From positions 1-64,000 of the IMG/VR virus record IMGVR_UViG_3300033146_004399: a stretch of 64,000 nucleotides of DNA. One strand, 5' to 3'. Below, piece by piece: positions 4,131-33,344 of the stretch; the first letter of the stretch is position 1; the number at the start of each line of letters is the position of its first letter. The notes beneath the pieces are model-generated. The model had not been told where the DNA came from, did no database searches, and saw only the letters and a list, made by a program, of their open reading frames with translations. This DNA comes from a virus. A program made the translations under genes and the position numbers.

Positions 4131-4547
<417 letters not shown>

Positions 4548-12490: not shown

Positions 12491-13093
12491 TTACTTTTTA
12501 CCGTATAGTTGTTGTATATCTGAAGACAGTTGAGAATTATTAAATATTGTATCCATAACTTTAGTAGATATGGTGCTATAATCCATACCTGAAAGAATAG
12601 CTTCTTTAACTTGATGTTTATCTCTGAATGAAGCACCCACTAGATTGATATTGCTATTTGCAAGAGTTTTCAATTTATATGCATCATCAAACAATCCACT
12701 ATATTCATTTTTGCCTCTATATACCATAGTATAATTCGCACCTATTTCTATAGCCTGGTTTATTTGAACAATATCATATACAGTTGTAGCAGCTACTTTA
12801 AATCCGTTACTTTTTAAGTCTTGTATAACTTTATAAAATTTCGGATGCATTGTTATTTTAAATACTATGTCATCTGAAATATCTAAATCATATATTTTAC
12901 TAATTTCGTGTGCTTCTTTGCTATCAGTTATTTGTACGAATTTAGTAAATTTATAACCTTTTACCATATCTAAAAAATCATAATTTGTCATTTTTGCAGC
13001 TTCTAATAAAACAGGATTTGATGTAACTCCACTTATAATACTATGATATTTATCTATATCTTCTTTCTTGACACTGTCTAAAAAATATTTCAT
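12491..13093 (-). CDS. transaldolase / fructose-6-phosphate aldolase-like enzyme
   Basis: A 200-residue protein of the short transaldolase (TalC/FSA-like) subfamily. Motifs: FLDSV at the start, SGVTSNPVLL at 21-30 (family GxTTNPS-L), VFKITMHPKFY with the expected Schiff-base lysine at residue 79, AATTVYDIVQINQAIEIGA and GASFRDKHQVKEAILSG. The reaction is reversible transfer or aldol cleavage of a dihydroxyacetone unit. Here it ends the accessory island, next to Kdo-type sugar genes and a radical SAM gene whose stop is adjacent to its start. I infer that it makes or modifies a sugar precursor for that pathway. Phage transaldolases are otherwise known from cyanophages, where they serve the pentose pathway, so carbon rerouting is the alternative. 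Confidence 0.85.
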   Translation of the reverse strand: MKYFLDSVKKEDIDKYHSIISGVTSNPVLLEAAKMTNYDFLDMVKGYKFTKFVQITDSKEAHEISKIYDLDISDDIVFKITMHPKFYKVIQDLKSNGFKVAATTVYDIVQINQAIEIGANYTMVYRGKNEYSGLFDDAYKLKTLANSNINLVGASFRDKHQVKEAILSGMDYSTISTKVMDTIFNNSQLSSDIQQLYGKK

Positions 13094-15688: not shown

Positions 15689-16448
15689 TAATAAATTCCC
15701 ACAGCCTATAAAATTTATTAATCATTTTTTTTAATTCATTATTATATAACATTACTTCGCTATCACACAACGCTTCCTTACAGTTAGGATGCGTTTCTAA
15801 AAATAAACCATCTGCCCCGGCGGCTAAAGCGGTTACACCCAGTGTCTTTATTCTTTTTGTTTGGTTACCAGACCATCCCTTATTGGGATGCGTAATATCC
15901 CATAAAACTGGCATGTTATTTTCTTTCATAATTTCTATGTGCCGTGGGTCCATAAACACTTTATCATATCCTAACATAGTTCCTCTGTCAGTAAGTATGA
16001 TATCTTTAGCTCCAAATTCCAAAACATTATTTACTATATTCTTCATTTCCCATGGACTAACAAATTGAGGTTTTTTTATATGTAATTGCTTATCATATAC
16101 TTTACAATGATAAGCTGATGCTTTTAGTAAAGATTGTTGTTTGGCAAGATAGGCTGGTATCTGTATAACATCTACAAACTTTAATTCCTCCATTAGAAGA
16201 TGCTCAACATTGTGAACATCAGTACATATTTTTACATTATATTCATTTTTAATTTCTTGTAATAGAGATAAGGCCTCCTTCTCACATAAACCAGAAAATC
16301 CAGTGGAAAGAGTTCTATTATCTTTTTTAAACGATGATTTAAAAGTAAAATCTATATCTTTCCCTTTGACAGCTTCCAAAATAGATTCAATACTTTTTTT
16401 TAATTCATCCTTACTTTCTACTACACATGGTCCTGCTATCAATTTCAT
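15678..16448 (-). CDS. kdsA: KdsA-like 3-deoxy-8-phosphooctulonate synthase
   Basis: A 256-residue protein of the DAHP/Kdo-8-P synthase family, near the usual 260-280. Motifs: LIAGPCVVES at 3-12, FTFKSSFKKDNRTLSTGFSG (family FK-x-SFDKANR), ICTDVHN, VIQIPAYLAKQ (family LQIPAFLCRQ), IKKPQFVSPWEM, LTDRGTMLGYDK and the C-terminal WDITHPNKGWSG and GADGLFLETHPN. The family condenses phosphoenolpyruvate with arabinose-5-phosphate. No KdsC or KdsD is seen in the window, so these may come from the host. The first 38 nt overlap the end of the upstream radical SAM gene. Confidence 0.9.
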   Translation of the reverse strand: MKLIAGPCVVESKDELKKSIESILEAVKGKDIDFTFKSSFKKDNRTLSTGFSGLCEKEALSLLQEIKNEYNVKICTDVHNVEHLLMEELKFVDVIQIPAYLAKQQSLLKASAYHCKVYDKQLHIKKPQFVSPWEMKNIVNNVLEFGAKDIILTDRGTMLGYDKVFMDPRHIEIMKENNMPVLWDITHPNKGWSGNQTKRIKTLGVTALAAGADGLFLETHPNCKEALCDSEVMLYNNELKKMINKFYRLWEFINEL

Positions 16449-17292
16449 TTTCGTCTCCTTCTGTTACTGCTAACTCGCAACTTTTACATATAAAATCTTC
16501 TGAAGATTTTATTTTACCATTAATTTTACTCATAATGGTTTTATATAATTTTGAATTATATATATCTTCCAACGTTTGATGTTTAATATTCCCTAAAACT
16601 ATAGATTTTGTATAATCCATGCAACAAAGAATTAACGAACCATCTGCTAACAAATTAAACCATTCGTATGGTATACCTTTTGTACAACCTTTAATTTTAT
16701 TATGAATAACTTTATCGATATGTTTTAATATTCCTCCACGAGTATAATTATAATTTTTTGATATAAAATATCGTTTTAAAAATTCTGCAGGTGTTTCATT
16801 TCTTTCATAATAACGATTTTTTATAACATTAAAATTTTTGTTATTTATTGAATAGTCATAAAGACTATTATATGCTTCAACCATTTTATTCCAATCAAAT
16901 TCGGTTATATTTGTATTATGAACAATGTTATACGTATCAGCGTTATATCCATCCAACGATACCATAATTTGATTTATTTTACTATTTTTAATATTATCAA
17001 TATTTTTATGTAATAATAGTCCATTAGTTACAAACCCGATATTAGAATTGGGTATAATATTTTTAATATATTCAACTCTATTAAATAAATATGGGTCTAA
17101 AAGTGGTTCATTTTCTAAATGTAAAAATATGTTTATATTATTAGCAGCGACTTCTTTCAATTCTTCAATAAATTTATTAAATACATATGATCTTATTGTA
17201 TCGTTATTATGATACACTAATCTATGTGGACATGAAATGCATTTTGCATTACAACTATCTATTGTTTGTATTTGAACATTGTTAATTTTCAT
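16411..17292 (-). CDS. radical SAM/SPASM-type enzyme
   Basis: A 293-residue protein. CX3CX2C at residues 14-21 (C-NAK-C-IS-C), HLENEPLL in place of the GGEP motif, and VTNGLLL. The C-terminal half has CTKGIPYEWFNLLADGSLIL followed by a Cys pair, VLGNIKHQTLEDIYNSKLYK and FICKSCEL, the layout of the one-cluster SPASM-like tail, similar to the gene at 13094-14002. It sits between the HemN-like radical SAM gene (11-nt overlap) and KdsA (38-nt overlap). The long overlap into KdsA indicates tight co-expression. The substrate is unknown. Confidence 0.85.
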   Translation of the reverse strand: MKINNVQIQTIDSCNAKCISCPHRLVYHNNDTIRSYVFNKFIEELKEVAANNINIFLHLENEPLLDPYLFNRVEYIKNIIPNSNIGFVTNGLLLHKNIDNIKNSKINQIMVSLDGYNADTYNIVHNTNITEFDWNKMVEAYNSLYDYSINNKNFNVIKNRYYERNETPAEFLKRYFISKNYNYTRGGILKHIDKVIHNKIKGCTKGIPYEWFNLLADGSLILCCMDYTKSIVLGNIKHQTLEDIYNSKLYKTIMSKINGKIKSSEDFICKSCELAVTEGDENEIDSRTMCSRK

Positions 17293-19091: not shown

Positions 19092-19129
19092 ATATAAATA
19101 ATTATGCTTTAAGGCATAATTATTTATAT
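19092..19129. promoter_or_regulatory. perfect palindrome with two divergent TATAAATA boxes
   Basis: Arms of 16 bp (19092-19107 and 19114-19129; left arm ATATAAATAATTATGC) around a 6-bp centre. Each arm contains TATAAATA, the core of T4-type late promoters, at 19093-19100 (plus) and 19128-19121 (minus). It occupies nearly the whole gap between the divergent radical SAM and carbamoyltransferase genes. It could act as two back-to-back late promoters, a dimeric operator or a transcript hairpin. Confidence 0.6.
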
Positions 19130-20123
19130 GAATAATTATATATGTTTCCAAGAATTTGGCCATGACGCTAATATAGCATTATATTTTAATAATCAATTAC
19201 TTCATTTAGAGGCTGAAAGATTTTCAAAAATTAAAAATGATGATAATATATCTAATATCAAATTGAATATGGATTTAACAAATTTTAAGCAGATATATAT
19301 TACCCATCGAACAAATGTAAGTTATTATGGCTTAAATAATATTAATTTTAATTTTCATGATAATATCATTAAAACTCGAAATAGATATCATCTTGAACAT
19401 CACACAGCTCATGCTGCATATGCCTATTATACTAAACCTCGAAATATGAATAAATGTGATATTCTTGTTCATGATGGATGGGGACTAATTACGGATCGTG
19501 TTTTTTTTGATGAAAATTTAAATAGAATTGATGATACTATTTCTGGAATTGGATTGTTATATAGTAGTATTGCTAAATTAATATTTGATAACACTCATCA
19601 TGCTGGAAAAGTAATGGGTTTATCTGCATATGGAAAATTTGATAATGAAATAACAAATTTATATCATACTCATTTGAATCAATATATAAATTTAAATCAA
19701 CATAAAAATAATATAAATTTACTTTTTGAAGAAAAAGCCCGAATAGGAGGTAGAAGAAGTATTATTGCTAATTTTTACGATAACAATAATAAACCAGATG
19801 CAGATTATGCATATGCTGTTCAAAAAATGTTTGAACAGTCCACTTTAAATTATTTAAAAAAATTTAAAACATCAAATAATTTATGTATAGCTGGTGGTTT
19901 AGGATTAAATGGCTATCTAAATAAAAAAATAATAGATGAAGGAATATATGAAAAAGTATACGTACCACCGGCATGTGGTGACTCTGGCCTTGCATTGGGC
20001 GGTGTATTATGGTTACTTAATAAATTAGAATCTAAAAATATAAACGATGATTTTATTGCGTATTTAGGAAATAATTATAATGTTAATGATAAAATAATTG
20101 AGGATATAATAAATGAATTATAA
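19128..20123 (+). CDS. carbamoyltransferase (NodU/CmcH family), N-terminal half
   Basis: A 331-residue protein equal to the N-terminal ASKHA-fold domain of NodU/TobZ-type O-carbamoyltransferases. Motifs: FGHDANIALYFNNQLLHLEAERFSK-like opening (at about residues 10-35), HHTAHAAYAYY (metal-binding His cluster), DGWG, AGKVMGLSAYGKF, NLCIAGGLGLNGYLN and VPPACGDSGLALGG. The family makes carbamoyl-adenylate and transfers the carbamoyl group to a sugar hydroxyl. It ends at 20123, eleven bases into the next gene, which holds the C-terminal half. It is the only plus-strand unit inside the minus-strand island, driven from the palindrome. Confidence 0.85.
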   Translation: MNNYICFQEFGHDANIALYFNNQLLHLEAERFSKIKNDDNISNIKLNMDLTNFKQIYITHRTNVSYYGLNNINFNFHDNIIKTRNRYHLEHHTAHAAYAYYTKPRNMNKCDILVHDGWGLITDRVFFDENLNRIDDTISGIGLLYSSIAKLIFDNTHHAGKVMGLSAYGKFDNEITNLYHTHLNQYINLNQHKNNINLLFEEKARIGGRRSIIANFYDNNNKPDADYAYAVQKMFEQSTLNYLKKFKTSNNLCIAGGLGLNGYLNKKIIDEGIYEKVYVPPACGDSGLALGGVLWLLNKLESKNINDDFIAYLGNNYNVNDKIIEDIINEL

Positions 20124-20670
20124 AAAATATTCATATTCAGATATATATGACATTATATCTGATAAAATTATTGATGGTAAAATTATAGGGTGGTATCAAG
20201 GCAGAAGTGAATCTGGACCTAGAGCTTTGGGTAATCGTAGTATATTATGCGATCCGAGAGATCCAAAAATGAAAGATTATTTAAATGAAAGAATAAAACA
20301 TAGAGAAAACTTTAGGCCATTTGCGCCAACAATTATGAAAGATTATATTACAGAATGGTTTGAAGATATAGAAGAAGCTCCATATATGTTGAAAATTGCT
20401 AAATATATTAAAGGTATGGGTGAGAAAGTCCCGTCTGTTTGTCATATAGATTATACCGGAAGATTACAATCTATTACAGAAAATGATAATGTTTACTTTT
20501 ATAATTTAATAAAAACTTTTTACAATAAAACTGGTTGTCCAATATTATTAAATACATCATTTAATGATAACGGACAACCTATAATAGAAACGCCTGCAGA
20601 TGCTATACATACTTTTAATAATATCGATTTAGATTATTTAGTCTTGAAAAATTATATATTAACTAAATAA
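20113..20670 (+). CDS. carbamoyltransferase (NodU/CmcH family), C-terminal half
   Basis: A 185-residue protein matching the C-terminal domain of the same family: IIGWYQGRSESGPRALGNRS (about 24-43), ILCDPRDPKMKDYLNERIKH, NFRPFAPTI, VCHIDYTGRLQSI and CPILLNTSFNDNGQPIIETP, all highly conserved. Together the two products total about 516 residues, close to an intact enzyme. The ATG overlaps the stop of the N-terminal gene (ATGAATTATAA), so the halves may be made by coupled translation and assemble. A simple one-base frameshift in a formerly single gene is the alternative; all key motifs are intact in both halves. Confidence 0.85.
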   Translation: MNYKKYSYSDIYDIISDKIIDGKIIGWYQGRSESGPRALGNRSILCDPRDPKMKDYLNERIKHRENFRPFAPTIMKDYITEWFEDIEEAPYMLKIAKYIKGMGEKVPSVCHIDYTGRLQSITENDNVYFYNLIKTFYNKTGCPILLNTSFNDNGQPIIETPADAIHTFNNIDLDYLVLKNYILTK

Positions 20671-20671
20671 T

Positions 20672-21655
20672 TTAATTACGGCCTAAATTAATATTATCTA
20701 AATTATAAAATCCTAAACATGGGCCATTACACAAACCTTTATAAAATCTACATTCTAAACAAGGAGCTGGTGGTGTTATTATAGATTCTATTATTTTATA
20801 TCTAATAATAAGATCATTGGCTACTATATCGAGACTATCATATTTAGTAGAATCAACAGCTATAGTATCTTTTAATGGATAACAATAACTTACAGTATTA
20901 TCAGGAAAAATATCAGCTGGTACGCCATCCACACCGCACTTTAAACTAAGTCTATTTACAAATTTTTTAATATATTTATATTCTTCTTTGTTTTCGAACA
21001 TACATGGAAATAAAATGCAATCAATTGAAGGAGCAATTCCATTATGAACTGCTCCGCTCACAAGAGCTAAAACTATTTTACCTAATTCTTTATTATTTAT
21101 AAAGTAAAAATCTTCTTTATCCTCTTTATTTCCTGGAAAATTTATACTTATTCGCAGCCTTTCTAGAGCAGGCACATTATTTATTAAAAAATTTAAATAA
21201 TTTATATAATATTTTTTATCATTATTATATATAGTTAATCCAACAGATATATTTTCTTCCTGATCATTTGGATATGCTGCCTTATATAAAGCAGTGTAAT
21301 TTTTACTCCATAATTTTATTCTATTAAATTTATCTAAATCTGTAGCATTAACTAAATATTGAATATTAATTTTTTTACCAGCATCAATTAATAATTCTAA
21401 AATATCGTTGTTAAATAAAAAATTACTTATTAGTGTAAAAGGTCTATTTTTTTTAATTAAAAGTTCAACAAATTCTTTAAATAATGGATGCTGAGTCGGT
21501 TCACCCCCTAAAAGTTTAATTCTCGTATTTGTTTTATCAATTAAATTTTCAAATTGTTCTAAACTCATTGTACTATTAGGATTATTTTCTTTATTTTCAT
21601 GTGCAAAACAATATGGACAACCCTTGTTACAAGACGTGGTTAAAATAAAATTCAT
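20672..21655 (-). CDS. radical SAM enzyme with C-terminal Cys cluster
   Basis: A 327-residue protein. CX3CX2C at residues 9-16 (C-NKG-C-PY-C), then RIKLLGGEPTQHP (canonical GGEP) and FTLISNFLF. The tail has IDCILFPCMFE, LKCGVDGVPADIFPDNTVSYC, and PCLECRFYKGLCNGPCLGFY, a SPASM-like cluster set. The stop is one base away from the converging carbamoyltransferase end. It is the last gene of the minus-strand unit containing the Cys-repeat protein (24768), so peptide modification is a reasonable inference. Confidence 0.85.
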   Translation of the reverse strand: MNFILTTSCNKGCPYCFAHENKENNPNSTMSLEQFENLIDKTNTRIKLLGGEPTQHPLFKEFVELLIKKNRPFTLISNFLFNNDILELLIDAGKKINIQYLVNATDLDKFNRIKLWSKNYTALYKAAYPNDQEENISVGLTIYNNDKKYYINYLNFLINNVPALERLRISINFPGNKEDKEDFYFINNKELGKIVLALVSGAVHNGIAPSIDCILFPCMFENKEEYKYIKKFVNRLSLKCGVDGVPADIFPDNTVSYCYPLKDTIAVDSTKYDSLDIVANDLIIRYKIIESIITPPAPCLECRFYKGLCNGPCLGFYNLDNINLGRN

Positions 21656-21672: not shown

Positions 21673-22290
21673 TTATATTTTCATTATAGATATTAATAAA
21701 GATTTCCGTAGACTCAAATTTACATTTTTATTTTGACCAAAAAACAATTTTTTACTAGATTTAAATAAAAATTCATTAGTATAGTCTAAATCAACAATAT
21801 CAAAATTATCATAATTAGTTTCAGCATTTTTTATATTATTATTAATTTTAAATATTTTAATAAAGTCTCCTATTAAAGGTATAACATGAAAGCCATAAAT
21901 CATATCTTCTATTTTATTTTTAATATGTGTTGTAATTAAATCTAAATGTTCATCTTTACTCTGTACTATTGAAAATACAAATTCGTATTTTGCATCGGTA
22001 GGAACATTAAAAAATGTTTTTAATACATTAACATATTTTTCATTATTTAAAAATAATGAAAATAAATTTTTATCCTCAACTTCAAGTCTATCAAGTTGAT
22101 TACTTGAAAATTTGAATTCTTTAAAAAACACAAGTGGTCCATTGATTCCGGATTTATATTTATTAATATTAATTGCATTAACTGCTGTTTTGATATCTTC
22201 ATTAATTAAATTTGTTGTTAAAAACTCTTTATCACTATTATTTAAAATATATTGTAATTTATCTGTTTCATCAACATTAAATATTTCCAT
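21673..22290 (-). CDS. unknown protein in the radical SAM / repeat-protein unit
   Basis: A 205-residue, acidic-to-neutral, K/N/I-rich protein with no motif I recognise. It lies between two radical SAM genes: its ATG overlaps the stop of the 442-residue SPASM enzyme at 22290, and 17 bases separate it from the next gene. No cysteines, membrane segment or signal peptide are evident. Its position suggests an accessory role for the neighbouring maturases, for example substrate recognition, but nothing in the sequence proves this. Confidence 0.55.
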   Translation of the reverse strand: MEIFNVDETDKLQYILNNSDKEFLTTNLINEDIKTAVNAININKYKSGINGPLVFFKEFKFSSNQLDRLEVEDKNLFSLFLNNEKYVNVLKTFFNVPTDAKYEFVFSIVQSKDEHLDLITTHIKNKIEDMIYGFHVIPLIGDFIKIFKINNNIKNAETNYDNFDIVDLDYTNEFLFKSSKKLFFGQNKNVNLSLRKSLLISIMKI

Positions 22291-23618
22291 TATGTTCTCC
22301 TTTTAATCATTAAAGATTGATTAAAATTAATCCCCAAACTACTTTTAAAATTCGGATCAATCGAAATCTCAAATCCCCTATTTTTTAAATCATTAATAAA
22401 TTTACTTTTAGCCATATTAATAATATTAGTTTTAGCATTAAAATACCAAATACCATCATTATTTTTGTTGGTTTCATACATTCTTTCAAATAATTTTATT
22501 TCATTTTTTATTAGAAATGTATGTAAAGGTTTAAATATATTACAAACTAAATTATCTCTTATACCAAATTCACCATATTTACTATAATGAAAAGCTATAC
22601 AACCATGATCGCAAATATTGTCGGCTGGGCATAAATCACAACCCAAATCATGCACTAATTTATCTTTAATCTTTATTGTGCTGAAAAATCTTTTTATTTG
22701 TTTTAATTCTAAAAATTCATCATCTTTAACATTTTGAACAAATGTTTCTTCAAAATCTTGAGAATATCTACCGCAAAAATGTACATCTCCGTTGGGATTA
22801 ATTTCTATAATATGCATTCCGCCGCCGCATAATTTTAATCCACAATTACTTTTATGTTCTTCAATTATTAAATTACCACTAATTATTTTAGCGAAATGTC
22901 TTTTAACTATTGTTTCAATATTATCTTCAACAATAGTTTGATATTTACCGTTAATAAAATTATTTAGTATTGGTATCCATGCTTTATTTACAAAATCTTC
23001 TCCGGATACTTCACTATTGCCCACATTATTAACATCTTCTGCATAATTTACTTTAATACCTGAAATATTATATTTATTAAGAACATAATCTATACTTTCC
23101 TCAATATTTTTAATATTTGCTTGGTTTACCACTATTAAAAATCCATATTTAATATTAAACTCTTCTAACATTAAAAAATATTTTTCAAATTTATCGGTAT
23201 TTATTTCTGTTCTAGCAGAATTAGATTCTCTAATCCCATCAAACGATACTCCAACACTAACATCAAAATCATGTAATATTGTTAATAATTCTTTATTTAT
23301 TAAAGTAAGATTTGTTTGTATACCAAAATTATAAACAATATTATTTGCTTTAAAAGCTCGTGAAGAATACGATAAAAATTTCATAAACTTTTGTACACCT
23401 AATAATAATGGTTCACCCCCATGAAAAATTAAAGTAAATGTGCCATTATATTTGTTTTTTTTTCTATCACTAATAATTCTTTGTATAATAATTTTAAAAG
23501 TATCAAACTCCATCATTTCACCTTTAAAATTATCTTTATTTTTTACATAACAGTAAGAACATCTTAAATTGCAATCACGAGTGACTTTGAGTATTAACAT
23601 GTTTGTATTTCCAAACAT
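22290..23618 (-). CDS. radical SAM/SPASM peptide maturase
   Basis: A 442-residue protein of the anSME/peptide-maturase size class. CX3CX2C at 16-23 (C-NLR-C-SY-C), FHGGEPLL (SAM motif), FGIQTNLTL and SVGVSFDGIRES. The SPASM domain is complete: NCGLKLCGGGMHIIEINPNG, VHFCGRYS, LGCDLCPADNICDHGC and VCNIF, enough to bind two auxiliary clusters. This is the strongest peptide-maturase candidate in the island. It overlaps a small zinc-ribbon gene, which in turn follows the Cys-repeat protein by 20 bases, so that repeat protein is its likely substrate (inference). Confidence 0.9.
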   Translation of the reverse strand: MFGNTNMLILKVTRDCNLRCSYCYVKNKDNFKGEMMEFDTFKIIIQRIISDRKKNKYNGTFTLIFHGGEPLLLGVQKFMKFLSYSSRAFKANNIVYNFGIQTNLTLINKELLTILHDFDVSVGVSFDGIRESNSARTEINTDKFEKYFLMLEEFNIKYGFLIVVNQANIKNIEESIDYVLNKYNISGIKVNYAEDVNNVGNSEVSGEDFVNKAWIPILNNFINGKYQTIVEDNIETIVKRHFAKIISGNLIIEEHKSNCGLKLCGGGMHIIEINPNGDVHFCGRYSQDFEETFVQNVKDDEFLELKQIKRFFSTIKIKDKLVHDLGCDLCPADNICDHGCIAFHYSKYGEFGIRDNLVCNIFKPLHTFLIKNEIKLFERMYETNKNNDGIWYFNAKTNIINMAKSKFINDLKNRGFEISIDPNFKSSLGINFNQSLMIKRRT

Positions 23619-23844: not shown

Positions 23845-24768
23845 TTATATTGTATTTGCATAATTAGCATGATTAGTATAAGCCGCAGCTGTATAACTTA
23901 TTGTATTTGAATAAGAAGGATCAACATACCCAGCAAGTTCATCAGTTTTTATTTTTAAATTCTCCCAATCTGATTTAGTTATTATATCTCCAGGAGCTTT
24001 ATCAGCTAAGGCTGGGGTAGATGAGTCATCGTCACCTCTGATCTCAGCCCATAAACTATATAAACTATCTCTTAACGCAATATATTGATTATCTTCTACA
24101 AATTCAGGAGTAGCAGGATTTGCGTCGTTAAATTTTGCATCACCAACATTAGCAGAGGAAGCAGCAACATCAACAGAAGCATTCTGTTGACTTTTTATTG
24201 TACTTAAAATATTAATATTATCTCTAATATTTTTTATGGCTTCAATACCATCTGATATGAGGGTTGTATTTAAAACATTTTCAGTCCAAGGTTCACTCCA
24301 AGTTAATGTTTGGGCGTTACCACTATCTTGATTAGCATAATTGACATGATTTGTATAATCTTGAGAAGTATTACAGTTATCTGACGCATTATTATAATAT
24401 GTCGAGCATGCATTATTTGAATTTGAATAGGATGTCGAGCATGCATTATTTGAATTTGAATGGGATGTTGAACAATAATTATTTGTATTCGCGTGGTATG
24501 TTGAACAATAATTATTTGAATTCGCGTGGGACGTCGACCAACTATTATCATGAGATGTTGCACAGGCATTATTTGAATTTGAATAGGATGTCGAGCATGC
24601 ATTATTTGAATTTGAATGGGATGTTGAACAATAATTATTTGTATTCCCGTAGTATGTTGAACAATAATTATTTGAATTCGAATATGCGACGTTACACACG
24701 TTTGTGTAATCTGTATATACTATACCTGTTGTACAATTATTATAATCGAAATATTCATTATAAGCCAC
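23845..24768 (-). CDS. Cys-repeat protein, candidate substrate of the neighbouring radical SAM maturases
   Basis: A 307-residue protein starting at GTG 24768 behind AGGAGA. Residues 26-132 consist of 11-residue repeats of the form (S/Y)-(Y/H)-(S/A/G/D)-N-(S/T)-N-N-(Y/A)-C-(S/A)-T. Cysteines are at 12, 25, 36, 47, 58, 69, 88, 99, 110, 121 and 132. A higher-order 52-residue duplication (27-69 against 79-121) is visible. Residues 150-307 are an ordinary, mixed domain (LTWSEPWTENVLNTTLISDG, ALADKAPGDIITKSDWENLK) ending in YTNHANYANTI, which echoes the repeat edge YTNHVNYAN. Radical SAM/SPASM genes lie on both sides. I infer a repeat substrate whose Cys, Asn or Tyr/His side chains are crosslinked; it may be displayed on the virion. 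A plain fibre protein is the alternative. Confidence 0.75.
   Translation of the reverse strand: MAYNEYFDYNNCTTGIVYTDYTNVCNVAYSNSNNYCSTYYGNTNNYCSTSHSNSNNACSTSYSNSNNACATSHDNSWSTSHANSNNYCSTYHANTNNYCSTSHSNSNNACSTSYSNSNNACSTYYNNASDNCNTSQDYTNHVNYANQDSGNAQTLTWSEPWTENVLNTTLISDGIEAIKNIRDNINILSTIKSQQNASVDVAASSANVGDAKFNDANPATPEFVEDNQYIALRDSLYSLWAEIRGDDDSSTPALADKAPGDIITKSDWENLKIKTDELAGYVDPSYSNTISYTAAAYTNHANYANTI
24373..24693 (-). repeat. 33-bp coding tandem repeats of the Cys-repeat protein
   Basis: Ten units, nine of 33 bp and one shortened to 24 bp by loss of the Cys-containing part (SHDNSWST), encode residues 26-132. Blocks of four units are duplicated with a 156-bp period, so the array grew by duplication of a multi-unit block. 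Units remain very similar at the DNA level, which points to recent expansion or ongoing recombination. Confidence 0.85.
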
Positions 24769-24778
24769 GTTAATTCTC

Positions 24779-25849
24779 CTAAGTTCTAAAAATTTTATTT
24801 AATATTAAATTTATCTTACATAAAACAGGAGAAATAATGTTATAATTTCCAGAATTTATTCGCATAGCTGCTAAGCATCCCCCCTTACACCAATCTACAG
24901 CAGGGCATGTTTCACAAATTTTATTAATTTTAAACTTATCGATATTAACTCTTTCTGTAAGTTTTGAATAATATTCATTATTATAATAACCGGTATATAT
25001 ATCACCGTAAAACTCGTTATAATTATCATCAAAATCTTTCATTTTAGGAACTAACTGGTGACAAAAGAATAATTTACCATTGGGGGCAATAGTTGTCACG
25101 GAATTTGGTTTATGACAAAAATTTTGTTGCATATAAAAATTATTATTTAATATACGATTTATTGCGTCAACATATGGCGGTAACTTCTTAATTTTAAACA
25201 ATGATGTTAATTGTTTTTCTATTGATGTATATGCTTCATCTGTATATTCAACATTAAAATTATATAATATATTAACATTTACTCCAAGACTAATTAAAAA
25301 TTCATAACTTTCTTCTAAATATTGATAATTATTATTACTAACCACCATAAGAACTGTCGGTATTATACCGATATATTTAAATTTAGAAATTAATTCTGGA
25401 AATATTTTCATTGTTTGATCCCAACTGCCAGTGTTATTTTGTGTTATTCTGTTGATATCGTGTGATTTTCGAGTACCATCTAAAGATATAATTGGATATA
25501 TTTTATGTTTTAACATAAATTCAATCATATCACTATTTAATAACAATAAATTTGAATTCATAGTATATTTAAATTTATTGTTTAAAGATTTTTCAACGAA
25601 TTTTTTTATAAATTCCCAGTTCATAGTAGGTTCACCACCAAAAAAACTTATCGACGGTGATTCAGAGCACGTTTCTTTAATAAATAAAAGTATATCATCG
25701 ATCATGTCTAACTGCATAGTATAATTATAGTTACATATTGTACGGTCTGAGAATGCGTCATCAAAGCAATATTTACATCTTAAATTACAATTTTCAGTTA
25801 ATATTAACTCATAATAATTTATAGATAAATTTTTCGGTTTATTAATCAT
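24779..25849 (-). CDS. radical SAM/SPASM peptide maturase
   Basis: A 356-residue protein. CX3CX2C at 21-28 (C-NLR-C-KY-C), SISFFGGEPTMNW (SAM motif), YTMNSNLLLL and PIISLDGTRKSHD. The SPASM tail shows NFCHKPNSVTTIAPNGKLFF-C-HQ, KICETCPAVDWCKGGC and VLCKIN, seven Cys in the canonical spacing. It lies ten bases upstream of the Cys-repeat protein gene in the same direction, and two bases after the next radical SAM gene, so it is a second strong maturase candidate for that substrate. Confidence 0.9.
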   Translation of the reverse strand: MINKPKNLSINYYELILTENCNLRCKYCFDDAFSDRTICNYNYTMQLDMIDDILLFIKETCSESPSISFFGGEPTMNWEFIKKFVEKSLNNKFKYTMNSNLLLLNSDMIEFMLKHKIYPIISLDGTRKSHDINRITQNNTGSWDQTMKIFPELISKFKYIGIIPTVLMVVSNNNYQYLEESYEFLISLGVNVNILYNFNVEYTDEAYTSIEKQLTSLFKIKKLPPYVDAINRILNNNFYMQQNFCHKPNSVTTIAPNGKLFFCHQLVPKMKDFDDNYNEFYGDIYTGYYNNEYYSKLTERVNIDKFKINKICETCPAVDWCKGGCLAAMRINSGNYNIISPVLCKINLILNKIFRT

Positions 25850-25851
25850 TT

Positions 25852-26760
25852 TTATTCCTTTATTGGTATTAAGTCTAAATTATTTTTATATTTTTCATAG
25901 TATTCTTTCCATACTCCAATGCAACGTTTATTATAGATGCAATCTTCACATGTTTTTGGCTTTCTATATTCTTCACGAATAAGTTTATTGTAATCTTCAA
26001 TGGCAACATCATTAATAGCATGGTCATGGCCTCTATTACCATTAGATAATAATCTATCTCCATCAGAATAATATACTTGATTTACATATGGATGAATATA
26101 ACACAATGGTATCGCTTCAACATATAATAAATTACCATATTTTTCAAAACATTGATGTATTGATTTTTTTATAGTAATGTATTGAGGGACAACAACATCA
26201 ATGTTTGTAAATGCGTTACCATTAGGATGCGGAAATGTCATATTCATAGCATTTATTCCTAAAACATTATGTATAAAATCATATGTTTTTAATAAATTAT
26301 CCACGTTCATTTTAGATAAAACTGTTTGCGAATTTATGATAGAATTTGTTTTATATTTATTTAAATATTTAATACCTTGTATTGTTTCGGCCCAACTACC
26401 TTTTCTATCCGTAATAGCATCATGTATAAATTCATTATGAGAATGAATAGCTATTAAATAATAATCTATATATTTTACAGATTCTTTTGTGAATTCTTCA
26501 TCATTAAAACGTCTCCCATTAGTTTGTAATATTATTGGACTTTTAGTTTCTTCTTTTATATATTTTATTATTTCTATAAAATCTTTTCGTATAGTTGGTT
26601 CTCCGCCTGTTATTACAATTCTTTCACCTGGTTTTACTTCTTTATATATAATATCTTTTATTTGTTGCGTTGATAAATTTCCAGAATTAATTTTATCAGT
26701 TATTACGCAATGAACGCAATTATTATTACAAGAAAAACCAACTTTTAAATCAAACGACAT
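25852..26760 (-). CDS. radical SAM/SPASM-type enzyme
   Basis: A 302-residue protein. CX3CX2C at 11-18 (C-NNN-C-VH-C), RIVITGGEPTIRKDF (SAM motif), PIILQTNGRRF, then a TIM-barrel-like continuation. The C-terminal KTCEDCIYNKRCIGVWKEYY supplies three Cys for an auxiliary cluster, and PLCYIHPY adds one more. It resembles the heme-d1/PQQ-type maturases in general layout. The gene starts ten bases after the end of the 663-residue protein gene and leads into the repeat-protein unit. Confidence 0.85.
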   Translation of the reverse strand: MSFDLKVGFSCNNNCVHCVITDKINSGNLSTQQIKDIIYKEVKPGERIVITGGEPTIRKDFIEIIKYIKEETKSPIILQTNGRRFNDEEFTKESVKYIDYYLIAIHSHNEFIHDAITDRKGSWAETIQGIKYLNKYKTNSIINSQTVLSKMNVDNLLKTYDFIHNVLGINAMNMTFPHPNGNAFTNIDVVVPQYITIKKSIHQCFEKYGNLLYVEAIPLCYIHPYVNQVYYSDGDRLLSNGNRGHDHAINDVAIEDYNKLIREEYRKPKTCEDCIYNKRCIGVWKEYYEKYKNNLDLIPIKE

Positions 26761-26770: not shown

Positions 26771-28762
26771 TTAATATGCTATTTTTATATCTTTATCATA
26801 TAAATTAGAAATAATAATTTCATCAAGTTTTTGTTTGCCTTGTTGATAAGTATTAAATATGTCAATTAATTTATATAGTCCACCAGATATATTATAATGT
26901 TCATTTGTTACAAAACTTTTTTGTTTTTGAAACATCGAATAATAATTAAAAATTATACTATTTTCAACAAATTGTACTATAGATATATTTTTATTTTTAT
27001 CTGATTGTAAATTCATATTATATGCTACAAAAAAATCTGTATTCATTTGAAGGTTAATATATTTTTTTAATTCTTTCATATATATATCAGTTAAGTTTTT
27101 TCTTTTATAAAATGGTAATGCGTTATATAGCCCTTGAACTTCACCCAACGTCTGAATGGTTTTCATAAAAACACCAGAAGTGGTGGTATGAAAATTATTA
27201 TTTATAAAATTTAATACATCATCTTCAAAATTTTGAATAATTATTTCTGTATCAAGTTTATTATTATCTAAATTATAACGGGCTTGAATAATATGCGTTG
27301 CGCTAATTAACGATATTAATCGTTGCAACGAATGCTGGTGAGCTATATCTTTAATTTTAAACATATTTTTAATTATTAAATTTGACTTTTTTAATATATA
27401 TTCAATATAATAATTATTGTGTTTCCACTTATATGTATTTACAATATTCCTAGTAAATACATATAAAAATTTAGTTAAACTTACAATTTTTAAATTTAAT
27501 TGCCAATTAATATCTTTTAATTCTGATTCGTCAAATGATTTCCCATTATTTATATAATTTATTGTTAACCTTATAAATGGAGATTTATTACTCATTTCGT
27601 CCATATGAAATCTATTTTTCATTGTAAAAAAATTATTATTAATATTGTATTTATTTAAAAATATTTCATAATCTTTGTCATTATTTAATTTATCTAATTT
27701 TAATGTAGATAAGTATTCATTAGTTAAAAATTTATAAGCTAAATCATCTTTATATTCTATATCTGGATATATATGTATAAAATGTTTTAATATAATTTGT
27801 TTAAAATAATTTACAAAATAAATATCAACGCTATTGCATTCTTTTATAAATTCATTTAATCCTTTTATCATTAACACATACATTTTATAGTTGTATGATA
27901 AATAAAATATTCGTATAAATATTTTATTATAATGTATAAAATTATCATCATGTAATATCATTTTATCTAGTAAATATTGCATCATGGCCATAATATATTC
28001 TATATTTTTATATTGAAATAAATATGTAAACTGTCTATCATCTTGCAATTTATTTGCCAAATCTATATAATTTATATCTTCTATATTTTCCATAATAGAA
28101 TAAGGTTCAATATCGAAAAATTTAAACACATAATCAATATGAGATTTGTAATTATATTTAAATTCTTTATTAAACCAATACATGATATTATCGCTATCAA
28201 CTTCATTTACATAATTAATGTTATTTTCTTTTAATAAATTTTTAAGATATTCTGCATAATATTGATTGTTTCCAGTTATTTTATATTCTTTATTTTCAAC
28301 TTTAAAATTTTGTAACTTAGTAAAAGTTAAAGTATCAACATTAATATGTATATTTTTTTTATTTGATGTAGTATTATCGGTATAAGGTAATAAGTCAAAT
28401 AAATCAATAATAAATTTATTTTTAATGTTAATTTCATCAAAATGAGTAATCTTATTTTTAAATATAATATTATCCATTTTAGTTTTAATAAACATTACAA
28501 CAGAATTTATTTTTGATTCAACAAATATATTATAATTAATAATAATGTCGGTAATTTCTATTTGGTCTGTTATATTAAAAATAGAATCATATAGCTCTTT
28601 ATTATAATTGTTTGTATTTAAAATAGATTTAACCCATTTAATATCAACGTTATAATAATATAAAATATCATTAAACAATTTAAAAATATTTATATTAAAA
28701 ATATTTTTATCAGTTTTACGAGTTGTTAAAATATTTTTATTATTTTTATTAAAACTATACAT
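26771..28762 (-). CDS. large unknown protein, paralogue of the 610-residue neighbour
   Basis: A 663-residue, strongly K/N/I/Y-rich, mainly helical protein. No signal peptide, membrane segment or catalytic motif is evident. The C-terminal third (NYYIEYILKKSNLIIKNMFK, IQARYNLDNNKLDTE, TLGEVQGLYNALPFYKRKN, then a NTDFFVAYNM segment) can be matched by eye with the end of the upstream protein (NIEYIILRLEKIINKVMLNH, IKYRYNMDNKKWDN, ISQIQSLYNAQHILKRVD). It overlaps that gene by 8 nt and precedes the radical SAM unit by ten bases. A helical toroid-type fold is possible. Function is unknown; an enzyme or scaffold for the modified repeat protein would fit the position. Confidence 0.6.
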   Translation of the reverse strand: MYSFNKNNKNILTTRKTDKNIFNINIFKLFNDILYYYNVDIKWVKSILNTNNYNKELYDSIFNITDQIEITDIIINYNIFVESKINSVVMFIKTKMDNIIFKNKITHFDEINIKNKFIIDLFDLLPYTDNTTSNKKNIHINVDTLTFTKLQNFKVENKEYKITGNNQYYAEYLKNLLKENNINYVNEVDSDNIMYWFNKEFKYNYKSHIDYVFKFFDIEPYSIMENIEDINYIDLANKLQDDRQFTYLFQYKNIEYIMAMMQYLLDKMILHDDNFIHYNKIFIRIFYLSYNYKMYVLMIKGLNEFIKECNSVDIYFVNYFKQIILKHFIHIYPDIEYKDDLAYKFLTNEYLSTLKLDKLNNDKDYEIFLNKYNINNNFFTMKNRFHMDEMSNKSPFIRLTINYINNGKSFDESELKDINWQLNLKIVSLTKFLYVFTRNIVNTYKWKHNNYYIEYILKKSNLIIKNMFKIKDIAHQHSLQRLISLISATHIIQARYNLDNNKLDTEIIIQNFEDDVLNFINNNFHTTTSGVFMKTIQTLGEVQGLYNALPFYKRKNLTDIYMKELKKYINLQMNTDFFVAYNMNLQSDKNKNISIVQFVENSIIFNYYSMFQKQKSFVTNEHYNISGGLYKLIDIFNTYQQGKQKLDEIIISNLYDKDIKIAY

Positions 28763-30587
28763 ATATATAACTCATATTTAATACATTTTTTGTTAAATGA
28801 AAAGTATTAGGAATAATTTTATTATTAGACTTATCAATTCCCTCATGAATTATTTCTAATAAATATTCACCATCATATATATGATTTTGTATAAATCTAT
28901 ATGGTATAGTCATAGATGGAAACATTGTATACGAAGCTAATAAAAATATTTGTTCATATATATCATGACGATTATTAATCTCATATTTTTCATTAACATT
29001 TGATATATCATTTTGCTTAAATCCATACATTGAAGCTACAAAGTCATAATGATTAAGTGAAATAATATTTTTGAATTCATTTAATATATCATTAAAAATA
29101 TTTGATACATCTACTCTTTTTAAAATATGTTGAGCATTATATAATGATTGTATTTGAGAAATTATTTCTATTACTTTATATATTGCTAATGGCAAATAAT
29201 GATATTTATTATCAGTAATAAATTTGATTTCTTTTACATAATCTTCTAATAAAGAAATATTATCCCATTTTTTATTATCCATATTATATCTATATTTTAT
29301 AGAATTTTTAAAATATATTAAACTAATAAATCTTTGATAAAAAAATGTATTAAATTTATCATGGTTTAACATTACTTTATTAATTATTTTTTCTAATCTT
29401 AGTATAATATATTCTATATTTATATTATTTTTTTTCCAACCTTGAAAAGAATATTTTCTAGCATATGATATTGCTGCAACACCTAAGATTATCATTTTAA
29501 CGTTTTCATTTTCAAGATCAACATCAGGTATATTAAAATTTTCAGATATGCAATTAATATAATCATAAATATCATAGTTTGTTTGCATATCTGCATTTCC
29601 ATATTTTTCCGGTATTAAACTATACATATCCATTCCAAACACATATAATTCTTTCATCAATTCTTTCTTATTAAAATCCATATCATATTTTGGTAATTTC
29701 ATATAAATATTTATTATTTTATATGAAACATTATTATCATTTTTAATATATTCAATCATAGCAAGATAATATCGAATTATTAGTTTTTGATAATGATAAA
29801 TATATTTTTTATTTTTAACAAAATGTAACATTTTATTTGTTACCAATAATATTGAATATATTATTTTTTCATTTGTTATATAGTTCAATAAATGAAAAAA
29901 ATTTTTAATATATTTTTTTAATAATATTTCGTTATTTTCCGTATGTATTATTACTGCTAATTCACTTAAACTATCAATATAATTAGTTTTATTAATATAC
30001 ATAAAATTTTTTATAAAAAATTTATTATTAATATCAATATCAATATTTTTAATTAAATCATTGCATGTAATATGCTTAGTAACAATTTTTGGTTCTAATA
30101 CATCAAATAATTTATCTATTCTTTCTTTTTCATTATTACCGATAATATTAAGCTCAGACTGCTCAGACTGCTCAGACTGCTCAGACTGCTCAGACTGCTC
30201 AGACTGCTCAGACTGCTCAGACTGCTTAAGCTTTATATTATTATAATCATTAATTATTAATAATTCATAAAGTGTTTCTGAATCAGTATACACTTCCACA
30301 TTTTTATTTGTTAAAACAATAAAATCAAATATATATTTGTTGATTGTACTTATAAACAAATGCGTATCAATATCAAAACTTAAAGCTGATAATATTTTAA
30401 TATACAAATTTCCTTCAGCATTATACTGTTTTAAACTTTGATACCATTCTTTGTTATATTTATTTATAGTAAATCTTAAATATTCTTCTTTTGTAATATT
30501 TCCATATTGTTTAATTAAATCTATAATATATGCAGGATTAAATCCCTTAGCTTTTTTATTACATTTATCATAAAATACTTTATTCAT
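28755..30587 (-). CDS. large unknown protein with Ser-Glu-Gln repeat, paralogue of the 663-residue neighbour
   Basis: A 610-residue, K/N/I-rich, helical protein, first gene of the minus-strand unit running into the radical SAM genes. Around residues 122-146 it carries a pure QSE tripeptide repeat encoded by a 9-bp microsatellite, which separates an N-terminal domain of about 120 residues from the rest like a flexible linker. The C-terminal third is similar to that of the downstream 663-residue protein. No known motif is visible. The pair probably arose by gene duplication. Confidence 0.6.
   Translation of the reverse strand: MNKVFYDKCNKKAKGFNPAYIIDLIKQYGNITKEEYLRFTINKYNKEWYQSLKQYNAEGNLYIKILSALSFDIDTHLFISTINKYIFDFIVLTNKNVEVYTDSETLYELLIINDYNNIKLKQSEQSEQSEQSEQSEQSEQSEQSELNIIGNNEKERIDKLFDVLEPKIVTKHITCNDLIKNIDIDINNKFFIKNFMYINKTNYIDSLSELAVIIHTENNEILLKKYIKNFFHLLNYITNEKIIYSILLVTNKMLHFVKNKKYIYHYQKLIIRYYLAMIEYIKNDNNVSYKIINIYMKLPKYDMDFNKKELMKELYVFGMDMYSLIPEKYGNADMQTNYDIYDYINCISENFNIPDVDLENENVKMIILGVAAISYARKYSFQGWKKNNINIEYIILRLEKIINKVMLNHDKFNTFFYQRFISLIYFKNSIKYRYNMDNKKWDNISLLEDYVKEIKFITDNKYHYLPLAIYKVIEIISQIQSLYNAQHILKRVDVSNIFNDILNEFKNIISLNHYDFVASMYGFKQNDISNVNEKYEINNRHDIYEQIFLLASYTMFPSMTIPYRFIQNHIYDGEYLLEIIHEGIDKSNNKIIPNTFHLTKNVLNMSYIYV
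30152..30223. repeat. 9-bp microsatellite, eight perfect units
   Basis: Eight copies of GCTCAGACT in tandem. On the minus strand they encode the QSE repeat of the 610-residue protein. Because the unit is a multiple of three, length changes keep the frame. Confidence 0.95.
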
Positions 30588-30638: not shown

Positions 30639-33344
30639 TTAAGCCATTAATATTAATACTTCTACTCTTTGTGGAGAAGAATCTGTTTTTTCTTCCATTA
30701 CTTTAGCAAATACTTTACCAAGTCCATCTTCAGTATTTTGCTTAACTGTACCAAATCCAACCTTTTCAGAAGTTATCAATAAGTCGCCGAAAAAACAAGG
30801 TTCTTCAACCCACACCCATACTCTACCAGATAATCCAACTGGTACCTTACCTTCACTTTTTTCATCACCACCTAAAGCATAACCATAAGAATCTGAATAA
30901 ACACCAACAACCGTTCCATCACCCCTTTTACTTGCAGGTTTGACACCATCAGCAGTTTGAACTAATACTTGTCCAACTTCACATTCTTCGGCAGCTGGAA
31001 AAAATTCTGCAAGGTCATTGTAAACTGCGTTATAAACTCTTGTTGCATAAAAATAACCATCATAGTTAAGTCTCGTCGAAGATGAAGGGGCTGTAGCTCC
31101 ACCATAAAGTTTACCAGCTGCTTTTGTGTTTCCGTTGTAAGCAAGAAAACCAACACTTGCAGTACCAGCAGCATAATCTGGTAGAGTAGCATTGCTATGT
31201 GTATGCGAATCATTATTAACCGCTGCGCTTATTGCTATATTAGCACTTCCATCGAAGGCAACTGCAGTTGCAGTTATATCACCAGTAATATCAATAGTTC
31301 TAGCAGTTGCTAATTTAGTAGCTGTAGAAGCATTACCCGTAAGAGTACCACTTATGCCTGCAGAAGCTGTAACAGCTTTAGAAAGTGTAATGAGTGAAGG
31401 TGTAAGAGTCATCACATTTGCAAGTGCAGCTGTTTCACCAACTGCTTGAGAAGTAGGTGTTATCTTAAAACTCCAGATACCGTTAGTTTGGTCCCAAATT
31501 TCATGAAATCCATATCCAGTTTCTGTCATCTCGTGTTGCGAATTGATAAATCTGTTACCAATTCTAAAATTAAAGTTACCACCGCCGTCGTTTGATGTTA
31601 TTTGATGCTTTCCAGCTTCAAACAATATACCTCCACCTAAGCCACCACTTACTTCCAAACCAGTTACTTCAAGATCAGTACCGTTAAATTTTATAGCTGC
31701 TGTTGTTTTAAAACTTTGAGAAGTTCCATCCCAATAAGGTACTCCATTTGTTATAGGCGTGTCTTCTCTTGTTGCTACTGCTTGAAGGGAACCTACCATA
31801 CCAACTTCAAAGGTATCGCTTGCTTCATCGAAAAGGAATTGATAATTTGTTTCTGTACCTCTTTCAATTTCCAACCCAGCATTTTGTGAAGGAGTACCAG
31901 CTTCATTACTATTAAGAATGATTATATTATCAGCCATAGCAATAGTTTCAGTATTAATAGTGGTAGTGGTGCCGGAAACAGTTAAATCACCTTGAACTAT
32001 AAGAGAGCCAGACATAGTATCACCATTTATATTAATAAATCTAGCATCACTTTCAGTCTCTGTATAATATCTAGTATCATGAGTATGTGAATCATTGTTA
32101 ACTGATGCGGTGATTGTTATATTAGTACTCCCATCAAAAATTACCGCATCTGATGTTATATCACCACTAATATTAATAGTTCTACCTGTTTCAAGTATTG
32201 TCGCTGTTGAAGCATTACCATTTATTGTATTTATATAAGCTGAAGAAAATATTTGTGTAGCAGAACCTATGTTTCTTACAGAAATATTGCCAATTGCACC
32301 AGTCATTTCTGGGAGTATATCACCATCAATAAATATACCAGTATCCGAAGTTAACGTTATTGTTTCTCCGGTAGGAGTTTCCATATTAATAGCTGCAGGC
32401 GAAACTGCGCCTGATAAAACAACTTCATTGTATGTAGAGCCGTCATAACTAACATTGAACGTGTCGTTGGTACCAGATATAGCGACTCCACCTAAATAAA
32501 TAGTGTTAGCGGCAAAATGACCTTCATCAGCATAAACATTACCAAAAGGTTTTGTTGCAGAACCCAAATCAACAGCATTAGTATTAGGGATAATATTATG
32601 TACAACAGCATTCAAAGACGTAGCTGTTATTGCTGTGTTAAAATCTAATTGATTTGAATCTATACCATCATGATCGTGACCTGATTGACCAAAGAATTTT
32701 TCATCAACATATATTTTAGTTGCATAATTTACTAAGTCTGAAGCTGAATTTATAACAGCTGTTAATTTTTGATCTGGTCCTTCAATATTATATGTAAATT
32801 GAATTTTATCAGTTTGTGGATCCCCATCTGAATAAATAAGATAATCATTCCCTGAACCTTGCTCTTGTAAAACACCATTTAAAAAAACCATAAGGTTTGA
32901 CCCATCTGCCGCAGCAGTATCTGAACCTAAATCAAAAATACTACCTGTTCCTTGGGGATCATTATCATCAACACCAGTCCAATTTGTAGCTTCATAAGAC
33001 ATTTTTAATACTAATTCTCTATCTTCATCACCTGAAGCAACACCAGTACCTGCTATTAATTGGTGATAAGGTTCTGTTGATAAACCAATCCACAATTCAT
33101 TCGTATTAATATCATAATACATTTGACCTGCCTGAGAGCCATCCCAAATTGGAAGTTCTGCAGTTGTAACCATCTTGATAAGACCTTCGGTTATCCAACC
33201 AGTAGCATCATTTTGCCATGCTTCTATTTTAGATTGTTTAATTTCTGCGTCATTTGCTATATGTGCGTTAGTAAGTCTGTGATCTATCCCATTAACTATA
33301 TCATTACCAATACCAAATATTTGTTCTGCTCGTAATCTCGGCAT
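30639..33344 (-). CDS. tail fibre protein with self-cleaving chaperone-like C-terminus
   Basis: A 901-residue protein. N-terminus MPRLRAEQIFGIGNDIVNGI followed by a head domain (SKIEAWQNDATGWITEGLIK). The middle is beta-rich, with Thr/Ala/Gly repeats such as NASTATKLATARTIDITGDI appearing in two similar copies (near residues 380 and 680), and segments VSGTTTTINTETIAMADNII typical of trimeric fibres. The last 110 residues (NDLAEFFPAAEECEVGQVLV, SKRGDGTVVGVYSDSYGYAL, GKVPVGLSGRVWV) resemble the intramolecular chaperone/peptidase G2-like domain that trims itself off after trimerisation. Probable role: host receptor binding. It is preceded by GTAAAGATATAT and AGAGGAGA, so it has its own promoter and a strong ribosome site. 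Confidence 0.8.
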   Translation of the reverse strand: MPRLRAEQIFGIGNDIVNGIDHRLTNAHIANDAEIKQSKIEAWQNDATGWITEGLIKMVTTAELPIWDGSQAGQMYYDINTNELWIGLSTEPYHQLIAGTGVASGDEDRELVLKMSYEATNWTGVDDNDPQGTGSIFDLGSDTAAADGSNLMVFLNGVLQEQGSGNDYLIYSDGDPQTDKIQFTYNIEGPDQKLTAVINSASDLVNYATKIYVDEKFFGQSGHDHDGIDSNQLDFNTAITATSLNAVVHNIIPNTNAVDLGSATKPFGNVYADEGHFAANTIYLGGVAISGTNDTFNVSYDGSTYNEVVLSGAVSPAAINMETPTGETITLTSDTGIFIDGDILPEMTGAIGNISVRNIGSATQIFSSAYINTINGNASTATILETGRTINISGDITSDAVIFDGSTNITITASVNNDSHTHDTRYYTETESDARFININGDTMSGSLIVQGDLTVSGTTTTINTETIAMADNIIILNSNEAGTPSQNAGLEIERGTETNYQFLFDEASDTFEVGMVGSLQAVATREDTPITNGVPYWDGTSQSFKTTAAIKFNGTDLEVTGLEVSGGLGGGILFEAGKHQITSNDGGGNFNFRIGNRFINSQHEMTETGYGFHEIWDQTNGIWSFKITPTSQAVGETAALANVMTLTPSLITLSKAVTASAGISGTLTGNASTATKLATARTIDITGDITATAVAFDGSANIAISAAVNNDSHTHSNATLPDYAAGTASVGFLAYNGNTKAAGKLYGGATAPSSSTRLNYDGYFYATRVYNAVYNDLAEFFPAAEECEVGQVLVQTADGVKPASKRGDGTVVGVYSDSYGYALGGDEKSEGKVPVGLSGRVWVWVEEPCFFGDLLITSEKVGFGTVKQNTEDGLGKVFAKVMEEKTDSSPQRVEVLILMA

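Follow-up and report, generated by a model that had tools for sequence, protein, structure and literature searches.

Small secreted peptides and a handful of enzymes are the settings in which radical-SAM crosslinking has hitherto been described; at the present locus it would probably be directed at large phage proteins encoded alongside tail genes. The locus encodes a tandem repeat protein embedded among radical-SAM/SPASM genes in a virus with T4-like baseplate genes (gp6-like and gp25-like), and it raises the question whether this protein is the substrate of its neighbours and which bonds it would receive. The analysed stretch (the window) comprises positions 1 to 64,000 of the IMG/VR record IMGVR_UViG_3300033146_004399 (179,366 bp in total) and has a GC content of 28 %. 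Nine radical-SAM genes were recognised, all of them located at 1.6–26.8 kb, and a search for the CX3CX2C motif flagged none in the other 115 kb of the genome. The best explanation, held to be rather probable, is a tail-linked protein that would be crosslinked many times by the surrounding radical-SAM cassette.

Architecture of the repeat protein and its cassette

On the minus strand two fibre-type proteins of 2300 and 901 aa come first, followed by two helical paralogues (610 and 663 aa). Next are an HxsC-like enzyme and a PapB/CteB-like SPASM enzyme, immediately before the repeat protein; behind it lie a 68-aa CxxC-CxxC protein, another SPASM enzyme, a protein of 205 aa and one more radical-SAM protein. 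The packing is operon-like, with overlapping or short gene junctions. L024 denotes a related virus described below.

30639–33344, minus strand: long-tail-fibre-like protein, 901 aa; phrog_11011 (long tail fibre distal subunit) 1.1e-28
28755–30587, minus strand: 610-aa paralogue of the 663-aa helical protein
26771–28762, minus strand: 663-aa helical protein, paralogue of 28755–30587; relative L024:13519-15720
25852–26760, minus strand: HxsC-like radical-SAM enzyme; HxsC4 1.1e-32, HxsC 3e-30, both below cut-off
24779–25849, minus strand: PapB/CteB-like radical-SAM enzyme of the SPASM type; may form the Cys-Asn thioethers
23845–24768, minus strand: repeat (substrate-like) protein, 307 aa
23618–23824, minus strand: 68-aa CxxC...CxxC protein; TAATG couples its gene to that of the second SPASM enzyme
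22290–23618, minus strand: second SPASM radical-SAM enzyme, near DynA, YhhB, DarE and AmcB (cyclophane formers) and AnSME
21673–22290, minus strand: 205-aa protein with a putative counterpart, L024:9231-9977
20672–21655, minus strand: cassette-specific radical-SAM protein with a CX2CX6CX3C tail

The 901-aa product, encoded directly upstream of the cassette, gave tblastn matches to distal fibres of Vibrio phages. A low-confidence model of the 663-aa protein (pLDDT 42) found nothing at E ≤ 0.001 in Foldseek; its 610-aa paralogue contains an internal SEQSEQSEQ repeat. The identity of the 205-aa protein to its putative counterpart L024:9231-9977 is 24 % in a forced alignment.

The repeat protein starts with GTG preceded by AGGAG, 10 nt after the stop codon of the SPASM gene 24779–25849. 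Its N-terminus reads MxYxEYFxY, its middle region is helical, and its 11 Cys are found at residues 12, 25, 36, 47, 58, 69, 88, 99, 110, 121 and 132. The initial annotation had described an array of 11-residue units with one Cys each. This applies to eight regular 11-mers of the form [YH]-x-N-[ST]-N-N-[YA]-C-[SA]-T-x within residues 26–132; a further unit, HDNSWSTS, is shortened to 8 residues and Cys-less, the NNxC part being gone and His-x-Asn kept. The duplication of a 52-residue block, which had also been noticed, was borne out: residues 26–77 and 78–129 correspond to each other with 131 of 156 nt identical (84 %) and 15 differing codons. A second run of motifs at the C-terminus, YSNT..YTNHANYAN (YSNTISYTAAAYTNHANYAN), is free of Cys; the initial annotation mentions neither this run nor the HxsC-like enzyme nor the CXXX genes described below. 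Chance as the origin of the array is excluded by the tandem duplication and by a comparison with 235 control ORFs, all of which stay below the repeat protein in the share of aromatic residues that have Asn, Asp or Ser at +2.

The repeat protein had no match in the families of Pfam, NCBIfam, PHROG and PADLOC, in particular none to the HxsA models, and no homologue among the INPHARED phages. Direct IMG/VR scans with the protein, a two-row alignment and a DNA pattern returned nothing or chance low-complexity matches only. Its structure model is of low confidence (mean pLDDT 31).

Complete SPASM maturases on both sides of the repeat protein, as originally proposed, are indeed present. Such maturases were defined by a CX3CX2C core, GGE, CX9-15GX4C and CX2CX5CX3C, and both 24779 and 22290 contain the core, GGE, CX12GX4C and CX2CX5CX3C. 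Both score above the Pfam Radical_SAM cut-off, and the PDB comparison of the two led to 5wgg/4k36 (24779 against 5wgg, CteB: 3.4e-16). Assignment to a particular family is less firm. The 24779 enzyme matches NCBIfam PapB at 1.7e-39, with 136 bits against a cut-off of 340; for 22290 the values are 125.5 against 450 (DynA) and 98.6 against 445 (YhhB), and for the His-Xaa-Ser enzymes 105 against 267.9 (HxsC), 113.5 against 500 (HxsC4) and 89 against 370 (HxsB). As all specific maturase-family matches lie below their curated cut-offs, the chemistry is guessed from the motifs. The 22290 enzyme is the probable counterpart of HxsB. For the 20672 protein a role as prokaryotic viperin in defence was considered and rejected (37 against 180 bits; partial matches below cut-off, in the N-terminal part only).

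Elsewhere in the window, a sugar-type module (12491–17292) contains transaldolase-like, Kdo cytidylyltransferase-like, HisC-like aminotransferase and Kdo8P synthase-like genes with further radical-SAM genes interspersed, and parts of it recur in L024 and in a second related virus, L101. A carbamoyltransferase at 19128–20670, encoded on the strand opposite to the cassette, is split into two overlapping ORFs, one with the N-terminal and one with the C-terminal Pfam domain. The ORF 4131–4547 carries a poly-Asp run.

The cassette might serve a host glycan, a nucleotide sugar, DNA or a lipid, the repeat protein being an unmodified Ser/Asn/Cys-rich fibre or a metal-binder. Kdo-type sugar genes, the carbamoyltransferase and other radical-SAM genes share the region, metal binding is possible via His, Cys and Asn, and metabolic roles are proposed for the radical-SAM genes of Campylobacter phages by the authors of PMC2853527. 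However, 22290 and 24779 carry complete SPASM domains of the peptide-maturase type and have peptide maturases as their top-ranking matches, the array protein is a recurrent member of the cassette, and the array of one related phage (L132) resembles HxsA, a predicted radical-SAM target. A target other than the repeat protein is accordingly considered improbable.

Conservation of the cassette and of its motifs

Relatives of the cassette were collected by IMG/VR scans with the SPASM enzymes and then with the HxsC-like enzyme, the latter adding L130 and L132. The closest is L024, a 201-kb virus in which orthologues of the cassette enzymes (41–44 % identity) lie behind tail genes together with a relative of the helical proteins. 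It encodes a 233-aa homologue of the repeat protein (L024:8526-9224, BLASTP 9e-07) with the common MxYxEYFxY start and an N-rich end, and its CxxC...CxxC domain occurs both alone and fused to the HxsC-like enzyme. L101 (178 kb) contains the cassette with a 220-aa array protein (L101:13391-14050) that begins with MGYVNYANYSN and ends in YAN, YSN, YTD, YLN, YQN, HSN, HRN, HGN, HSN, HLN, YAN, YLN and FTN; its match to the C-terminal part of the repeat protein is weak (7e-04). In the same virus the HxsC-like enzyme L101:15420-16949 has a C-terminal region that resembles a SAM methyltransferase (ILDICCNNG motif). L130 carries a WGNWGN...HSSHSSYS protein, preceded by an ORF of 1700 aa that weakly matches collagen-like sequence. 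Arrays of HSS, HSD and HSN are found in L132, whose cassette enzyme is HxsC-like and whose array protein is of the His-x-Ser/Asp kind. The L132 array protein matches HxsA4 at 2.6e-08 (34.6 against 55 bits) and HxsA at 6e-06 (26 against 122), both below cut-off.

Orthologues of the HxsC-like enzyme occur in L024, L101, L130, L132 and L134 at 36–44 %, those of 22290 in L024, L101, L132 and L130, and those of 20672 in L024 (44 %), L101 (36 %) and L132 (29 %); a close orthologue of the PapB-like enzyme 24779 was found in L024 only (43 %). Both core enzymes (HxsC-like and 22290-type) are thus present in L024, L101, L130 and L132, with an array protein nearby in each. The secure sequence homologue of the repeat protein is the one in L024, that of L101 being weak and those of L130 and L132 assigned by context and motif. 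The repeat protein had originally been tied to its radical-SAM neighbours, a view to be given up if homologues occurred widely without them; in both phages with a detectable homologue (L024, L101) the homologue lies within the cassette, and the tie holds. Among bacteria, L136 (47 % identity) has H-x-N/D array ORFs near its HxsC-like gene. Most of the 28 bacterial HxsC-like loci checked had no recognisable array; L136 and L143 had one.

What the five phage array proteins have in common is the spacing of aromatic and polar residues. The fraction of aromatic residues with Asn, Asp or Ser at +2 is 0.71 in the window, 0.53 in L024, 0.72 in L101, 0.79 in L132 and 0.50 in L130, the maximum in the 235 control proteins being 0.48 (shuffle p ≤ 0.002 for all five). 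Three of the proteins prefer +2 strongly; for L024 and L130 the preference is modest, with margins of 0.08 and 0.06 over other offsets. Asn or Asp stands at +2 of 18 of the 25 Tyr/His in the first 150 residues of the window protein, which hold the repeat region, and of 13 of 15 in the C-terminal array of L101. Since internal repeats are not independent observations, the agreement between the phages outweighs the p-values. The repeat protein stays with radical-SAM enzymes in related phages and carries aromatic-x-Asn/Asp/Ser motifs, which makes it probable that it is crosslinked; that it is a substrate of the cassette at all is regarded as very likely.

The initial annotation had proposed a substrate with many crosslinks, based on Cys. 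The motifs do match known radical-SAM targets; the Cys, however, are not conserved. Their number is 11 in the window and 3 in L024, both with a close orthologue of the PapB-like enzyme, and 1, 1 and 0 in the three cassettes that lack it. As these other cassettes are poor in Cys and yet keep aromatic-x-Asn/Asp/Ser, Cys crosslinking appears not to be the conserved part, and cyclophanes would be at least as likely as thioethers. The core enzymes occur in all five phages and a close PapB-like orthologue only in L024 with its several Cys, and these five genomes suggest a division of labour in which the core pair would act on aromatic-x-Asn and the PapB-like enzyme on Cys.

Modification mainly at Cys, by thioethers only, would turn the aromatic-x-Asn motifs into a by-product of a tail-fibre-like repeat. 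The NxxC motif is present in eight of eight regular units, the PapB/CteB-like enzyme is the nearest enzyme, and hyper-Cys arrays lie near SPASM genes at 66 of 80 phage loci (see below). Against this stand the nearly Cys-free proteins of the other cassettes, which retain aromatic-x-N/D/S, the resemblance of the conserved core enzymes to cyclophane formers and HxsC, and the HDN retained in the Cys-less unit. A Cys-only modification is hence judged unlikely.

For the preferred reading, a protein crosslinked by the cassette, the following course can be proposed. The [Tyr/His]-x-Asn motifs would be the target of two enzymes, the HxsC-like 25852 and the SPASM protein 22290; in the simplest case these would form three-residue cyclophanes between the aromatic ring at i and C-beta of Asn at i+2, as in triceptides. 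Known triceptide enzymes link Trp, Phe, Tyr or His to C-beta of Asn, Asp, Arg, Ser or Ala at i+2 (PMC11002830), and 'Aro-Xaa-Asn' is the triceptide motif (PMC9062424); an aromatic-x-X3 motif of this kind is present in the repeat protein. Such aromatic-x-Asn crosslinks are given an even chance. The PapB/CteB-like enzyme 24779 would add Cys-Asn thioethers within the N-N-[YA]-C (NxxC) segment of every unit, comparable to NxxcB, which joins Cys23 to Asn20 in the N-x-x-C of NxxcA (PMC8326336). The thioethers are proposed more tentatively. Because each regular unit offers one aromatic-x-Asn and one NxxC, the protein may be expected to acquire as many as about 18 links of the aromatic-Asn type and 8 of the Cys-Asn type. 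The helical middle and the C-terminal region would serve as its anchor, with the tail or fibre encoded directly upstream as the probable attachment site, and the outcome would be a stiff, protease-resistant appendage that is part of the tail or attached to it. Against this reading stands that YAxx-type repeats can also occur in tail fibres that carry no modification.

The arrays might instead undergo other radical-SAM chemistry such as epimerisation, C-methylation or oxidation. The chemistry of the SPASM family is diverse, and epimerised peptides can also have Asn-rich repeats. The nearest named families are mostly crosslinkers, though, and the i/i+2 and i/i+3 spacings fit known crosslinks (PMC11002830; PMC8326336); a modification other than crosslinking seems correspondingly improbable.

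Concerning the location of the product, the virion surface element suggested as a possibility by the initial annotation is based on the position of the gene behind tail-fibre genes, and a place in the virion is given about an even chance. The cassettes of the window, L024 and L130 all come after tail genes; the array proteins received no tail annotation from Pfam or PHROGs. The gene set as such is RiPP-like and would also suit a secreted effector or signal, but transporter and peptidase were not recognised in the cassette, a 307-aa protein is unlike a leader with a short core, and the preceding tail genes do not favour secretion either. A secreted RiPP-like product is therefore thought to be of low probability.

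Array proteins beside SPASM genes in other phages

A second system lies at the start of the contig:

2–130, plus strand: CXXX-repeat ORF of which the contig start leaves only the end (TCSNGCSTNCSLGCGQSCQTSCKATCLNGCENSCTASCVNTNS)
682–1662, minus strand: CXXX-repeat peptide maturase partner; TIGR04119 1.1e-14
1662–2924, minus strand: SPASM enzyme of the CXXX-repeat maturase type; TIGR04115 1.2e-53

The truncated ORF consists mostly of C-x-x-x units, and the two enzyme genes score below the cut-offs (TIGR04115 182.8 against 350 bits, TIGR04119 54.3 against 150). Owing to their convergent orientation the ORF and the maturase genes do not form one operon; to judge by their sequences, array type and enzyme type agree. 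A relative of the SPASM enzyme, L134:14916-16097, adjoins two Cys-array ORFs.

The combination is frequent among phages. When loci were fetched by SPASM similarity, a separate hyper-Cys ORF (at least 10 Cys in 60 residues) was found nearby at 66 of 80 viral loci (50 of 62 without near-duplicates), compared with 1 of 23 control tail loci with gp25. These ORFs are on the same strand as the SPASM gene in 65 of 66 cases, at a median distance of 601 bp. The association is strong, but the SPASM and control samples stem from different queries and do not amount to a full survey. Aromatic-x-N/D arrays are present at four (L024, L087, L100, L101) of the 14 SPASM loci that have no Cys array; in L087 and L100, two unrelated phages, HTD/HSD/FSN arrays adjoin SPASM genes.

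Several side observations belong to these loci. The hyper-Cys ORFs (L025–L103) fall into several classes: CDCNYCTC, CxCNSRT, CNTCQNCDSCQ, SCSGCSGGC and TCTCTC. In L100:8467-11914 two SPASM ORFs contain HGD/HTD motifs inside the enzymes and are flanked by separate H-x-D/F-x-N array ORFs. The Cys-array proteins of the gut type have a common N-terminal leader-like domain, LKAKVKAEMxRR..GSV..YGG..YDYT..P..G....EH..K...P..A(I/V)N, carried by L022, L044, L052, L054, L057, L059, L061, L063, L068, L069, L074, L082, L083 and L102; the idea that the C-terminal domain of the window repeat protein is the same domain was dropped when an HMM gave no match. In L079, L098 and L103 the CDCNYCTC arrays are followed by SDxRLKxEI, resembling the start of the S74 intramolecular chaperone of tail spikes; this putative S74 start received no Pfam confirmation. 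The Phass-1 region at its SPASM match contains gyrase/topoisomerase-like genes and no array, and in L015:3555-6512 a DnaK-like gene is apparently interrupted by a homing-endonuclease-like ORF.

The pairing is also seen in the Campylobacter phage CP220, whose gp140 (L002:11146-12747; found in 15 records) consists of CDCNYCT repeats, is annotated as hypothetical and lies four genes from a SPASM enzyme. CP220 and CPt10 possess 11–12 radical-SAM genes, termed highly unusual by the authors (PMC2853527), and phage radical-SAM genes are noted as rare and unexplained (PMC2853527; PMC3322345). The accessible Campylobacter phage literature proposes no link between repeat protein and enzymes, and the main text on the IBB_35 proteome does not name the gp140 gene.

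Seen together, diverse tailed phages may crosslink tail-linked hyper-repetitive arrays (aromatic-x-Asn/Asp/Ser, CXXX, NxxC, CNYC, CxxCQ) with radical-SAM/SPASM enzymes of their own, as a general and so far undescribed hardening of the virion of which the window would hold two systems. This generalisation falls just short of an even chance. If true, it would account for phages with many radical-SAM genes (11–12 in CP220 and CPt10; PMC2853527), phage proteomes would have mass-shifted or missing peptides, and enzyme-substrate pairs with many crosslink sites would be at hand for protein engineering.

Comparison with known systems

The initial annotation knew of no described phage system of this kind. 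For the accessible literature this holds: searches of openly available papers turned up none that links phage radical-SAM genes to repeat proteins. The radical-SAM genes of Campylobacter phages are known, however (PMC2853527), and the pairing is common. The ingredients are each known; what is new is that a phage unites them on one large tail-linked protein whose units each carry two types of motif.

With the Hxs systems (HxsA/B/C/D, TIGR03977-79, HxsC4/HxsA4) the window shares an HxsC-like protein paired with a SPASM enzyme, together with a tandem array of aromatic-x-polar motifs. It differs in scores below cut-off, an HxsD that was not seen, an added CxxC mini-protein and a target of about 300 aa that lies beside phage tail genes and combines Y/H-x-N with Cys. 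Triceptide enzymes (XncB, OscB, YxdB, YhhB, HaaB) act on Omega-x-Asn/Asp/Ser at i, i+2 as proposed here, and 22290 matches DynA, YhhB and AmcB; unlike triceptides, the window has about 18 motifs in one large phage-borne protein, and the crosslink is deduced from motifs. Ranthipeptides (NxxcA; PapB/freyrasin; CteB/thermocellin) have in common with it the NxxC motif and a PapB/CteB-like SPASM enzyme, whereas the window offers eight tandem NxxC units plus aromatic motifs and an enzyme far below the PapB cut-off. Its second system resembles the CXXX-repeat systems (TIGR04115/TIGR04119) in SPASM enzyme, partner and C-x-x-x repeat ORF, but with scores below cut-off, a truncated ORF and a phage context. 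The Campylobacter phages CP220, CPt10 and IBB_35 (Firehammervirus) are likewise AT-rich and T4-like, with many radical-SAM genes and the Cys-repeat protein gp140, which in sequence has no similarity to the repeat protein of the window.
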